From Geodermatophilus saharensis (GTDB lineage: Bacteria > Actinomycetota > Actinomycetes > Mycobacteriales > Geodermatophilaceae), in contig NZ_FZOH01000003.1 of assembly GCF_900188205.1 (NCBI RefSeq), positions 84,539-148,538 on the forward strand: a DNA stretch of 64,000 nucleotides. The letters run 5' to 3'. Each line of letters opens with the position of its first letter. Position 1 is the stretch's first letter. The position numbers and the translations under genes were made by a program. The notes under the pieces are model-generated. The model saw nothing but the letters and a program-made list of their open reading frames with translations, did not search any database and was not told the DNA's origin. Positions 1,899 through 6,074 of this stretch are shown here, in pieces.

Positions 1899-2452
1899 GC
1901 GTCGGCGGCACCGTCCGGGAGGCCCTGGCGCTGCTGCGCCGGCACGCCGGGCCGGTCTACACCACCTCGCTCGCGGTCACGCTGGTCAACACCGTGCCCG
2001 ACGTGCTCCGCCAGCTGCTGGTGTACCGCGACCCGAGCGTCGGGCACGCGCTGCTGGTCGACGTCGTCGGCTTCACCACCGGGCTGCTCGCCCAGCTGTG
2101 GCTCACCGGCGCGCTCACCGACCTGCCCGGCACCGGCCGGGTGCGGCCGCGCGGCGCGCTGGGCCGCGGGACGGCGACGGCGCTGCGGGCGGTGCGGGTG
2201 TCCCCGGCCGCGGTGCTGGCCGGCGTCGTCCTCGGCGGGTCGGTGTCGGCGCTGCTCACCCTGCCGCCGTCGGTGGCCGCGCTCGGCGTCGACGGCGTGC
2301 TCGGGCCGCTGGACGCGCCGTCGGCGGCGGCGTTCACCGTGGCCACGGTCAGCGACGTCGTGGCCAGCTGGGTCACGCTGCCCTTCCTCGCCGTCGTGCT
2401 GGTGCTGACCGCCGGTTCGACCAGGCGGTTCGCGGGCAAGGGCCGGGCGTGA
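1895..2452 (+). CDS. Small multi-pass membrane protein, unknown function
   Basis: A 185-residue hydrophobic protein that I do not recognise. Likely membrane segments are seen around YTTSLAVTLVNTV, ALLVDVVGFTTGLLAQL, the alanine/valine-rich stretch near the middle and a C-terminal segment ending VLVLTAGS, followed by a basic tail (TRRFAGKGRA). The start is the GTG that overlaps the methyltransferase stop; no better start is visible. Its own stop overlaps the next GTG in the same way, so it is the middle gene of a coupled trio. Confidence 0.7.
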   Translation: MSVGGTVREALALLRRHAGPVYTTSLAVTLVNTVPDVLRQLLVYRDPSVGHALLVDVVGFTTGLLAQLWLTGALTDLPGTGRVRPRGALGRGTATALRAVRVSPAAVLAGVVLGGSVSALLTLPPSVAALGVDGVLGPLDAPSAAAFTVATVSDVVASWVTLPFLAVVLVLTAGSTRRFAGKGRA

Positions 2453-2829
2453 GGGATCGGGACTGGGACGTCACCCGCCGGGCGGTCGGGTCGCTGTCGG
2501 TGTGGATCGGGACGGCGGCACTGTTCGCGCCGCGGTGGATCGCCGGCACCCTCGGCGTGCGGCCCGACGCCGCCCGCGACGACGTCGCGCTGCCGCTGCT
2601 GGTGCGGCTGGGCGCGGCCCGCAACATCGCGATGGGCGCCGCGCTGCTCGTCACCCCGGCACCGCAGGCCCGGCGCACCACCGAGGTGGCGCTGCTGCTG
2701 ACCGCCCTCGACGCGGCCGCGGTGTGGACCTCGCGCGCCACCGGCGACGTGCGCCCGCGCAGCGCCGTGCTGTCGGGGCTCGTGCTGGCGCTGGCCTCCT
2801 ACGGCGCCGCCCGCTGGCACCGCCGCTGA
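2449..2829 (+). CDS. Small membrane protein (DUF4267-like)
   Basis: A 126-residue protein with about four hydrophobic segments: SLSVWIGTAALFAPRW, LVRLGAARNIAMGAALLV, VALLLTALDAAAVW and a C-terminal SGLVLALASYGAARW. The RxGxARNIxxG pattern resembles small DUF4267-type membrane proteins, but that assignment is tentative. It is coupled to the preceding gene by a GTGA overlap. The palindromic repeat cluster starts 14 bp after its stop and may end the transcript. Confidence 0.65.
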   Translation: MRDRDWDVTRRAVGSLSVWIGTAALFAPRWIAGTLGVRPDAARDDVALPLLVRLGAARNIAMGAALLVTPAPQARRTTEVALLLTALDAAAVWTSRATGDVRPRSAVLSGLVLALASYGAARWHRR

Positions 2830-2843
2830 GACACCGCCTCCCG

Positions 2844-2929
2844 TGCACTTCCGCGGAAGTGCCCAGGACAGGCCGTGCACTTCCGCGGAAGTGCACCGGA
2901 GGGACCGTGCACTTCCGCGGAAGTGCACG
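2844..2929. repeat. Three palindromic 22-mers at exact 32-bp spacing
   Basis: Three copies of a 22-bp palindrome begin at 2844, 2876 and 2908. The core is TGCACTTCCGCGGAAGTGCA, flanked by G and C. Copies two and three are perfect; the first has one change at its right edge. Spacers are 10 bp and unrelated in sequence, so the period is exactly 32 bp, about three helical turns. The cluster sits 3' of the membrane-protein operon and upstream of the DGPF/ECF42 promoter. It could be a transcription terminator, a protein-binding array or a dispersed repeat element. Confidence 0.9.
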
Positions 2930-2969
2930 GCTGCACGGGCCACCGCTGTCGAGAAACCGCCGCCCGGGA

Positions 2970-2996
2970 TGTCGAGAACCGCAGACCTGCTCCGTC
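2970..2996 (+). promoter_or_regulatory. Candidate ECF42 promoter of the DGPF-sigma operon
   Basis: TGTCGA at 2970-2975 is followed by GAACC and, after 17 bp, by CGTC at 2993-2996, an ECF-type -35/-10 pair. From memory, ECF42 factors use a TGTCGA -35 element and commonly control their own DGPF neighbours. A second TGTCGA lies 23 bp upstream at 2947. Transcription would begin near 3003, leaving a leader of about 44 nt with a GAGGAGAG ribosome binding site before the ATG at 3047. Confidence 0.6.
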
Positions 2997-3046
2997 CCCG
3001 GGGTGCACGCGGCCAGGATGGGCCGCAGACACCGAGGAGAGACGAC

Positions 3047-3454
3047 ATGGCCAAGTACCTGCTGCTCAAGCACTACCGCGGCGCCCCGGCGGCGGTGAAC
3101 GACGTCCCCATGGAGAAGTGGACGCCGGAGGAGATCTCGGCGCACGTGCGGTACATGGACGACTTCGCGGCCCGGCTCGAGGGGACCGGCGAGTTCGTCG
3201 ACGCCCAGGCGCTCGCCCCCGACGGGATGTGGGTCCGCTACGACGGCGAGGGGCGCCCGCCGGTGGTCGACGGCCCGTTCGCCGAGACCAAGGACCTCGT
3301 GGCCGGCTGGATGGTCGTCGACGTCGACAGCCGCGAGCGCGCGATCGAGCTGGCCGGCGAGCTGTCGGCGGCTCCCGGGGCCGGTGGCGAGCCGATCCAC
3401 GAGTGGCTCGAGGTGCGCCCGTTCCTCGGCGCGGCCCCCACCGTCACGGAGTGA
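3047..3454 (+). CDS. YCII-related DGPF-domain protein
   Basis: A 135-residue protein of the YCII/DGPF family with the eponymous DGPF motif at residues 75-78, followed by AETKDLVAGWMVVDV, which is characteristic of the family. The fold is a ferredoxin-like alpha/beta barrel; biochemical function is not established, though some relatives act on small molecules. The ATG has a strong GAGGAGAG ribosome binding site. Its stop overlaps the GTG of the sigma factor gene (GTGA). DGPF genes are the standard genomic partners and targets of ECF42 sigma factors, so this is probably both partner and regulatory target. Confidence 0.9.
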   Translation: MAKYLLLKHYRGAPAAVNDVPMEKWTPEEISAHVRYMDDFAARLEGTGEFVDAQALAPDGMWVRYDGEGRPPVVDGPFAETKDLVAGWMVVDVDSRERAIELAGELSAAPGAGGEPIHEWLEVRPFLGAAPTVTE

Positions 3455-4608
3455 CCCCGCCCCTGGACGAGGTACTCCTCCGGAGCCTCACCCCGGGCGT
3501 GCTCGGCGTCCTCGTCCGCCGCGGAGCCGACTTCGCGGCGGCCGAGGACGCCGTCCAGGAGGCGTTGGTCGAGGCGCTGCGCGTCTGGCCGGCCGACCCG
3601 CCGCGGGACCCGAGGGCCTGGCTGGTCACCGTGGCCTGGCGGCGGTTCCTCGACGCCACCCGCGCCGATGCCGCCCGGCGCCGGCGCGAGGACCTCGTCG
3701 AGGAGGAGCCGCAGCCCGGGCCGGCGTCCGGGGTGGACGACACGCTGGCGCTGTACTTCCTGTGCGCCCACCCGTCGCTGACGCCGTCGTCGGCGGTCGC
3801 GCTCACCCTGCGCGCCGTCGGCGGGCTCACCACCCGGCAGATCGCCCGCGCGTACCTGGTGCCCGAGGCCACCATGGCCCAGCGCATCAGCCGGGCCAAG
3901 CGCACCGTCTCGGGCGTGCGGTTCGACCGGCCCGGCGACGTCGCCACCGTGCTGCGCGTCCTGTACCTGGTCTTCAACGAGGGCTACTCCGGCGACGTCG
4001 ACCTCGCCGCCGAGGCGATCCGGCTGACCCGGCAGCTCGCCGCCGTCGTCGACCACCCCGAGGTGGCGGGGCTGCTGGCGCTCATGCTGCTGCACTCCGC
4101 CCGGCGGGTTGCCCGCACGGCGCCCGACGGCAGCCTCGTGCCGCTCGCCGAGCAGGACCGCACGCGGTGGGACACCGCGGCGATCACCGAGGGCGTCGCG
4201 GTCCTGCAGGCCGCCCTCGCCCGCGACCGGCTCGGCGAGTTCCAGGCCCAGGCCGCCATCGCCGCGCTGCACGCCGACGCACCCACCGCCGCGGAGACCG
4301 ACTGGGTGCAGATCGTCGAGTGGTACGACGAGCTGGTGCGCCTCACCGACAGCCCGGTCGTGCGGCTCAACCGCGCGGTCGCCGTCGGCGAGGCCGACGG
4401 GCCGCGAGCCGGGCTGGCGGCGCTGGCGGAGCTGGACGACTCCCTGCCCCGCCACGCCGCGGTGGCCGCGCACCTGCACGAGGCCGCCGGCGACCTGGAG
4501 ACGGCGGCACGGCTCTACGCCGAGGCGGCCCGGCGGGCACCCGACCTCGCCGAGCGCGACCACCTGACCCGCCGGGCCGCCCGGCTCAACACCCGCCCGC
4601 GTCCCTGA
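3451..4608 (+). CDS. ECF42-type RNA polymerase sigma factor with TPR-like C-terminal extension
   Basis: A 385-residue sigma factor, about twice the length of a simple ECF sigma. Region sigma-2 covers roughly residues 10-75 (AEDAVQEALVEALRVWP, then WRRFLDATR). Sigma-4 covers about 100-150, with the helix-turn-helix LTTRQIARAYLVPEATMAQR. The remaining 230 residues are a helical, TPR-like extension with NEGYSG near its start and LNRAVAVGEADGP farther on, the hallmark of the ECF42 group (DUF6596 type). In this group the extension is thought to replace a membrane anti-sigma factor, and none is encoded nearby. It is coupled to the DGPF gene. Confidence 0.92.
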   Translation: MTPPLDEVLLRSLTPGVLGVLVRRGADFAAAEDAVQEALVEALRVWPADPPRDPRAWLVTVAWRRFLDATRADAARRRREDLVEEEPQPGPASGVDDTLALYFLCAHPSLTPSSAVALTLRAVGGLTTRQIARAYLVPEATMAQRISRAKRTVSGVRFDRPGDVATVLRVLYLVFNEGYSGDVDLAAEAIRLTRQLAAVVDHPEVAGLLALMLLHSARRVARTAPDGSLVPLAEQDRTRWDTAAITEGVAVLQAALARDRLGEFQAQAAIAALHADAPTAAETDWVQIVEWYDELVRLTDSPVVRLNRAVAVGEADGPRAGLAALAELDDSLPRHAAVAAHLHEAAGDLETAARLYAEAARRAPDLAERDHLTRRAARLNTRPRP

Positions 4609-4633
4609 GGCCCCACCGCCCGGGCCGGTCGGC

Positions 4634-4688
4634 GTGCACTTCCGCGGAAGTGCACCGGACGGGACCGTGCACCTCCGCGGAAGTGCCC
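4634..4688. repeat. Two further copies of the 22-bp palindrome
   Basis: A perfect copy occupies 4634-4655 and a degenerate copy with two changes occupies 4667-4688, with starts 33 bp apart. They begin 25 bp after the sigma factor stop and sit just beyond the stop of the convergent Nudix gene. The repeat cluster therefore appears on both sides of the DGPF/ECF42 cassette. Position between convergent genes fits a bidirectional terminator, but the conserved sequence, not only the stem, suggests something more specific. Confidence 0.85.
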
Positions 4689-4698
4689 GCCTGGTGCG

Positions 4699-5298
4699 CT
4701 ACCGCCAGGCGAAGACCGGCTGCTCCAGGTGGGCGACGCGGGTGTGCCGGCCGCGGCAGGCGACCTGGCAGAACTGGTACACGACCGCCGCGGTGGGGGC
4801 GTGCAGCCACCCGCCGAGCAGCGGCAGCCGGATGACCGGCGCGTCGGACTCCGGGATGGTCACCAGCACCGGGTCGACGTCGAGGTCGGCCAGCGGCACG
4901 CGGTGCACCGCGGCCACCTCGGCCTCGGCGGGGGAGAGGTCGCCCACCTCGCCCGCCCACACGACCACCGGCGTCATCACGTAGCCCGAGCGCGTCACGT
5001 AGTCGTCGAGCAGGCCGAGCACGTCGCCGGGACCGCGGTGCAGCCCCACCTCCTCGGCCAGCTCGCGCAGCGCGCCCTCGACGGGCGTCTCGCCGTCGTC
5101 GAGCCGCCCGCCGGGCAGCGCCCACTGCCCGGCGTGGGCCCGCAGGCCCGCCGCCCGGCGGGTGAGCAGCAGCGCCGGCCGCTCCGGCGGCCCGGTCACG
5201 CAGACGGTGACGGCGGCCTGGCGCAGCTCGGGACGGCCGGCCGCGCGGCGGGGGAACTGCCCCAGCCGCGCGGCCGCCGTCGCGCGGTCGAGCGTCAG
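4699..5298 (-). CDS. Nudix hydrolase, possibly CoA-pyrophosphatase-like
   Basis: About 199 residues. A perfect Nudix box (GX5EX7REUXEEXGU) runs from Gly64 to Leu86 (GRLDDGE, then RELAEEVGL). The preceding LRAHAGQWALPGG resembles the extra signature of NUDT7-type CoA pyrophosphatases, so cleavage of CoA or a related nucleotide pyrophosphate is plausible. No ATG, GTG or TTG lies at a sensible position; the only fitting start is a CTG that overlaps the Spo0M stop (CTGA). A GTG about 33 codons later would remove the first strand of the domain. The start is therefore inferred. Confidence 0.8.
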   Translation of the reverse strand: MTLDRATAAARLGQFPRRAAGRPELRQAAVTVCVTGPPERPALLLTRRAAGLRAHAGQWALPGGRLDDGETPVEGALRELAEEVGLHRGPGDVLGLLDDYVTRSGYVMTPVVVWAGEVGDLSPAEAEVAAVHRVPLADLDVDPVLVTIPESDAPVIRLPLLGGWLHAPTAAVVYQFCQVACRGRHTRVAHLEQPVFAWR

Positions 5299-6074
5299 AA
5301 CCAGCCGCGCCGGCCGCCGAGCTGGCGCACCGCGGCGTCGAGCTGGGCGGCCACCGCGGACACGTCGGTGTCGTGGTGGGACAGGTGCAGCCGGCCGCCC
5401 ACGTCGCGGCCCTCGGTGAGCAGCCCGCCGCGCCGGTCGACCTCGAGGACGACCTCGACGCCGTGCGGCGAGGCCAGGAAGGTCACCTCCAGCTCGTTGA
5501 CCCGCCCGCGCAGCGACGACGGCGGCGCGAACTCCACCTCCTGGTAGAAGGGCAGGTCGCTGCCGGCCAGGCGGCCCTTCTCGACGTCGGCGCCGCGGAA
5601 GGCGAAGCCGAGGCCGGACAGGGCCTGGATGACCGTGCGCTGCACCGGCAGCGGCTCGACGGTGACCGCGTCGAGGTCGCCGGGGTCGACCCCGCCGGGG
5701 ACGTCGACCTTGGTGCGCAGGCCGATCTTCACCCCGCGCAGCGTCCAGCCGTCGAGCGTGGTGAACGGGCACTGCCAGGGCACCGGGAAGCTGAACGGGA
5801 CGGCCGCCCGCGCGCCCGCCTCGATCCGGCCGGCGCCGGCGATCACCGCGGTGCCGAAGGTGACGTTCTCGCGCCACTCGTGGTCACCGCTCTCCACCTC
5901 GACGGTGGCCTGCAGCGACACCCGCAGCTCGTTGATCTCCTGGGCGATCTGGCCGCCGGTGAGGTGCACGGTGCCGGTGACGGTGCCGCCGGGGGTGGTG
6001 ACCGGGGTGTCGAGGACGGCGTCGACGGTGGCGTTGCCGGCGCCGAGCTTCGCCATCAGGTTGCGGAAGGCCAT
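5295..6074 (-). CDS. spo0M: Spo0M-family sporulation control protein
   Basis: A 259-residue arrestin-fold protein of the Spo0M (SpoOM) family. The N-terminus MAFRNLMAKLGAG, the TPVTTPGGTVTGTVHLTGG strand pair and the PFSFPVPWQCPFTT segment are typical. In Bacillus Spo0M affects sporulation and cell-shape control; its role in actinobacteria is not settled. The ATG is preceded by a GGAG ribosome binding site. The gene lies 83 bp after a SpoIIE-type phosphatase on the same strand, which suggests a shared developmental or stress function. The Nudix gene appears coupled to its stop codon. Confidence 0.9.
   Translation of the reverse strand: MAFRNLMAKLGAGNATVDAVLDTPVTTPGGTVTGTVHLTGGQIAQEINELRVSLQATVEVESGDHEWRENVTFGTAVIAGAGRIEAGARAAVPFSFPVPWQCPFTTLDGWTLRGVKIGLRTKVDVPGGVDPGDLDAVTVEPLPVQRTVIQALSGLGFAFRGADVEKGRLAGSDLPFYQEVEFAPPSSLRGRVNELEVTFLASPHGVEVVLEVDRRGGLLTEGRDVGGRLHLSHHDTDVSAVAAQLDAAVRQLGGRRGWF

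Follow-up and report, generated by a model that had tools for sequence, protein, structure and literature searches.

Dispersed palindromes just past gene ends in Geodermatophilus, most likely stem-loops for two-way termination and/or RNA-end protection

In mycobacteria, the predominant type of intrinsic terminator is described as a U-less hairpin that lies no more than 50 bp from the stop codon (PMC12288462). Termination by such hairpins in actinobacteria is disputed (Czyz 2014 vs Ahmad 2020, judging from their citation in PMC12288462). Intergenic stem-loop families at 3' ends were surveyed in 40 genomes by Petrillo et al. 2006 (PMC1590033); these are enriched in convergent regions and in the first 50 bp past stops, some form repeated families, and the passage that lists the high-GC Gram-positives names Corynebacterium and mycobacteria, without Geodermatophilus. 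Clustered short extragenic palindromes at 3' ends are also found as REP/BIME elements with RAYT. The uptake signals of Neisseria and Haemophilus are often inverted in terminators.

The palindrome family analyzed here (fam1) resembles the mycobacterial "I-shaped" terminators in its GC-rich hairpin, the absence of poly-U, and a distance of ~50 bp or less from the stop codon (PMC12288462). However, the I-shaped terminators are defined by shape, whereas fam1 appears as about 120 elements with one 20-bp sequence, in runs of up to three. It shares the genomic placement of the families in PMC1590033 but differs in being loop-less and perfectly palindromic. No published description of fam1 was found in the open literature (most subscription journals were outside this scope); one candidate paper on palindromes was rejected, since it deals with Frankia. 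The family was met in a 64-kb window, i.e., the whole stretch of Geodermatophilus saharensis DNA that was analyzed, where two blocks of palindromes lie among the following features.

2449..2829, plus strand: DUF4267-domain gene, which ends the upstream operon; block 1 starts 14 bp past its stop codon
2844-2863, no strand: palindrome copy 1 (block 1), TGCACTTCCGCGGAAGTGCC, 1 mismatch to the consensus
2876-2895, no strand: palindrome copy 2 (block 1), exact, 0 mismatches
2908-2927, no strand: palindrome copy 3 (block 1), exact, 0 mismatches; the symmetry reaches 26 bp (CCG...CGG)
2970-2998, plus strand: TGTCGAGAACC...CTCCGTCCC, a promoter-like site for the DGPF-ECF42 operon that is also conserved in front of the orthologues
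3047..3454, plus strand: DGPF/YCII-domain gene (PF03795)
3451..4608, plus strand: ECF42-type sigma factor gene (Sigma70_r2, Sigma70_r4_2, DUF6596)
4635-4654, no strand: palindrome copy 4 (block 2), exact, 0 mismatches; 26 bp past the ECF42 stop (4608)
4668-4687, no strand: palindrome copy 5 (block 2), TGCACCTCCGCGGAAGTGCC, 2 mismatches; 11 bp short of the convergent NUDIX gene's stop
4699..5301, minus strand: NUDIX hydrolase gene, convergent, start uncertain; stop at 4699

The five near-identical palindromes of the original prediction (at 2844, 2876, 2908, 4635, and 4668) were confirmed, and the chance expectation in the window was 0 (100 dinucleotide shuffles). With up to 3 mismatches allowed, the 64-kb window yielded no further copy. 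Their confinement to only two places holds within the window but not genome-wide, as the host genome contains about 120 copies within the same mismatch limit (reversed control, 0). The repeat step first noted upstream of the DGPF gene is 32 and 32 bp among the three copies of block 1, and it is 33 bp between the two copies of block 2. The spacers of the two blocks are unrelated. The predicted folding energies of the blocks are -78.4 kcal/mol (z -9.0) and -59.2 kcal/mol (z -4.2). The upstream operon is an overlapping plus-strand gene run terminated by the DUF4267 gene. Given their distances to the DUF4267, ECF42, and NUDIX stops, both blocks lie at gene 3' ends. Three copies do lie upstream of the DGPF gene and two after the sigma factor gene, as first noted, but block 1 does not coincide with the promoter of the cassette: the promoter-like site is downstream of this block and separate from it. 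The site is present at most readable orthologous DGPF-ECF42 loci, and is probably the autoregulated promoter of ECF42. The sequence TGTCGAGAAACC, at 2947, is also upstream of the DGPF gene.

The gene contexts of fam1 were surveyed in 2.46 Mb of the host genome, with genes called by a codon-usage script and copies accepted at up to 4 mismatches. The 82 copies form 53 clusters (29 single copies, 19 pairs, and 5 triples), which are located in convergent (23), tandem (27), and divergent (2) regions, and within one called gene. The background intergenic regions comprise 243 convergent, 834 tandem, and 396 divergent regions (fam1 convergent vs divergent, p=4e-8). The cluster edge is 30 bp or less from the stop codon in 45 of the 50 clusters at gene 3' ends, typically at 3-12 bp, and 21/25 tandem clusters are closer to the upstream stop than to the following start. 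The fam1 palindrome is a Geodermatophilus-specific repeat placed just past gene ends throughout the genome, and almost nowhere else. Such placement is the rule for a 3'-end element, and the two window blocks obey it.

The check proposed at the outset was whether copies in the genome and its relatives cluster, keep steps of 32-33 bp, and border particular genes. In the own genome, 24/53 clusters are multi-copy; the step is not general, and the genes bordered are unrelated. In the own genome, adjacent copies are 30-35 bp apart in 19/29 steps and 42-43 bp apart in 4 more; in relatives, the common step is 23 bp. There is therefore no universal phasing rule, although the 30-35 bp step is a real preference of the own species. 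The proposed position on the same helical face (32 bp, about 3 turns) agrees with the own species but fails in the relatives. Clear duplication was scored in only 4/25 spacers (C11:101638, C11:530701, C11:653707, and C17:292914), so tandem duplication explains the 30-33 bp spacing only in part and was rejected as its sole source.

In comparisons among copies, fam1 palindromes behave as hairpins, with a stem conserved by pairing. In single copies, the stem is lengthened by copy-specific complementary flanks, with a mean of 4.03 bp compared with 2.49 bp in shuffled flanks (0/1000). Copies within clusters have no extension above chance (2.06 vs 2.08 shuffled); it is as if several short stems stood in for one long stem. 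A large outer stem around the multi-copy clusters was rejected, because flank pairing there was not above chance. In two relatives, 15 pairs of copies 23 bp apart were compared at the variable letters. The inner (facing) halves match as reverse complements in 13/15 pairs and the outer halves in 12/15, where about 3 of 15 are expected after shuffling (0/20000), and the self-symmetry of single copies within these pairs is not above chance. The selected unit in these pairs is one long hairpin. A weaker form of the signal is seen in the own genome, where adjacent copies have common inner variants in 5 cases vs 0.8 expected (1/2000). Template-switch repair of quasi-palindromes, without selection, could mimic part of the arm matching. 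Compensatory changes were also found at orthologous sites: at C11:65412 vs L036 the outer core pair goes from G-C to T-A, and at C17:30296 vs L049 a C-G pair immediately beyond the core becomes T-A. The Rfam search gave no match at the gathering score, only generic hairpins below threshold, and a known RNA family was rejected as the identity of fam1.

The fam1 sites are also shared among species. At syntenic copy-bearing loci of other species, the own genome has a copy in 13 of 14 species-locus comparisons, among which L065 rests on one alignment. These sites represent ten distinct 3' ends, often with changed copy number and spacing. The retention of copies in 13/14 comparisons indicates that the sites are old, and the core has been maintained despite changes in flanks and spacers. 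Copy number is highly variable within the genus. A three-copy array of Geodermatophilus sp. DF01-2 (L048 5423-5488) is missing at the own site (C11 about 463240), which otherwise aligns; one of the two species has therefore gained or lost the array.

Ordinary long hairpins provide a further comparison. They are found in 2/27 convergent regions that contain fam1 or a second palindrome family (fam2, described below), compared with 76/216 convergent regions without these families (p=0.004); in tandem regions alone, the avoidance does not reach significance (p=0.10). The rarity of their co-occurrence in convergent regions suggests that fam1 and fam2 do the same job as the ordinary long hairpins. 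A T-run of 4 or more was found within 15 nt after none of 68 fam1 blocks, and the T content of these 15 nt (9.5%) is under the intergenic mean (11.5%). The ordinary long hairpins of the host genome are likewise without a T-tract. A canonical (L-shaped) intrinsic terminator was thus rejected, given the missing U-tract after the hairpin, and fam1 agrees with the U-less (I-shaped) type: a stable hairpin 50 bp or less past the stop, no U-tract, and a stem conserved by pairing. Many of the ordinary 3'-end hairpins, for example those at C10:111323, 214464, and 317237 and at C11:254005, have very long stems (15-25 bp) whose ends are of the ACGACGA...TCGTCGT type, and lack a T-run.

The extensive replacement of ordinary long hairpins, together with the mycobacterial U-less terminators described in PMC12288462, favours a role in two-way termination or as a block at the RNA 3' end. 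Among the three roles originally proposed for the palindromes (a DNA-binding array insulating or regulating the cassette, a repeat accompanying its transfer, or a bidirectional termination block), the last is the best supported. The fam1 elements are most likely dispersed Geodermatophilus-specific 3'-end stem-loops that act as two-way terminators and/or RNA-end protectors, with a probability of about 0.75 in our estimate. In transcripts of the upstream gene, or of either member of a convergent gene pair, the sequence past the stop codon would fold into a very stable GC-rich hairpin without a U-tract. The 3'-end block would consist either of a single copy whose stem is extended or of two to three consecutive copies. 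It most likely stops RNA polymerase in both directions as an I-shaped, U-less terminator, and/or shields RNA ends produced by Rho or nucleases. In the window, block 1 would end the operon stopping at 2829, and block 2 would keep ECF42 apart from the NUDIX gene that converges on it. Termination or end protection by the hairpin is a function that we infer; 3'-end placement, hairpin covariation, upkeep at orthologous sites, and the scarcity of ordinary hairpins in the convergent regions concerned are read from the sequences. U-less termination in high-GC actinobacteria is disputed, and fam1 offers a ready natural series in which stem length, copy number, and sequence can be set against RNA 3' ends; single, double, and triple versions exist in one genome, some of them at orthologous 3' ends of several species.

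The stem is not the only conserved feature. The core consensus is GCACkTCCGCGGAmGTGC, with K/M at the ends; letters 2-5 and 7-10 are nearly invariant (about 95-100%), while position 6 varies uncompensated in many multi-copy clusters. Both features depart from a pure hairpin model, as the letters are constant beyond the needs of pairing. The original argument that sequence conservation speaks against a simple terminator is right to this extent, but the covariation of the hairpin is clear. It is conceivable, though doubtful, that a sequence-specific DNA- or RNA-binding factor reads the fixed core and that the hairpins are factor-assisted terminators or roadblocks. If so, this would be a dedicated 3'-end system at the genus level, in which one long hairpin and phased short arrays are interchangeable. 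A DNA-binding array proper, with a putative dimeric protein on the same core at gene 3' ends acting as a roadblock terminator or insulator, seems unlikely. The near-invariant letters with one tolerant position and K/M ends resemble a protein motif, the core is kept at orthologous sites, and the preferred own-species steps (a roughly 32-bp pitch would set the copies on one helix face) are consistent with it. However, copy-specific stem extension and arm matching between copies require strand pairing and not half-site binding, the usual spacing in relatives is different, 29/53 clusters are single, and the placement tracks 3' ends, not promoters. Selfish REP/BIME-like repeats, moved by a transposase and tolerated at 3' ends only, are improbable. 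Such repeats would account for the small size, palindromic form, extragenic position, and clustering of the many copies, for the great variation of copy number in the genus, and for the three-copy difference between L048 and the own genome. But no Y1_Tnp/RAYT gene was detected in 16 Geodermatophilus genomes, including the own genome (positive controls were detected), on which ground a REP/RAYT element was rejected; fam1 also has no GTAG head, its sites are old and fixed, and its flanks covary mutually, which is not expected of a pasted unit.

Two further readings have hardly any probability. A DNA-uptake-type signal, present as inverted pairs within terminators, would resemble the Neisseria and Haemophilus signals in this placement. 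It was rejected because single half-sites are not enriched genome-wide: outside palindromes, GCACTTCC occurs 76 times vs 65 in the reversed control, and GCACTTCCGC 5 vs 11 times. The palindromes might also mark the borders of an ECF42/DGPF cassette that is mobile, as the blocks flank both sides of it in the window. Most orthologous DGPF-ECF42 loci of other Geodermatophilus genomes occupy other gene contexts (protein identity, 74-91%), and no fam1 copy was found in the readable flanks of eight such cassettes (L068-L070, L074, L075, and L079-L081; for L081, the 3' flank alone); several minus-strand loci whose stop had been misplaced were left out of this comparison. The about 120 copies elsewhere adjoin unrelated genes, and twelve neighbouring cluster pairs 8 kb or less apart, besides the pair in the window, surround unrelated genes. 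The bracketing of the cassette is therefore incidental, arising only because two consecutive transcription units each end in a fam1 block. The palindrome has no special tie to the sigma-factor cassette. Its role as a cassette border is refuted, and its absence from the orthologous cassettes also speaks against a regulatory site of the cassette. Of the roles first proposed, insulation or regulation of the cassette and a repeat that accompanied its transfer are thus left unsupported. The census removes the false lead of the ECF42 cassette as a bordered mobile unit. When viral carriage of the cassette was looked for, the viral contigs contained only three distant ECF relatives, with 40-45% identity.

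The second palindrome family, fam2 (CGAGATCACGTGATCTCG), was observed in 11 clusters in the 2.46 Mb of the own genome, all at gene 3' ends (C10:168992; C11:5509, 6538, 135881, 202723, 349029, and 498498; C12:450228 and 458542; C17:76809 and 133972). Every cluster contains 2 or 3 copies, set exactly 41-42 bp apart, and most of the spacers differ from one another. This fixed spacing is stricter than that of fam1. The fam2 palindrome is also present in six other Geodermatophilus genomes, with up to 30 copies in one of them (G019).
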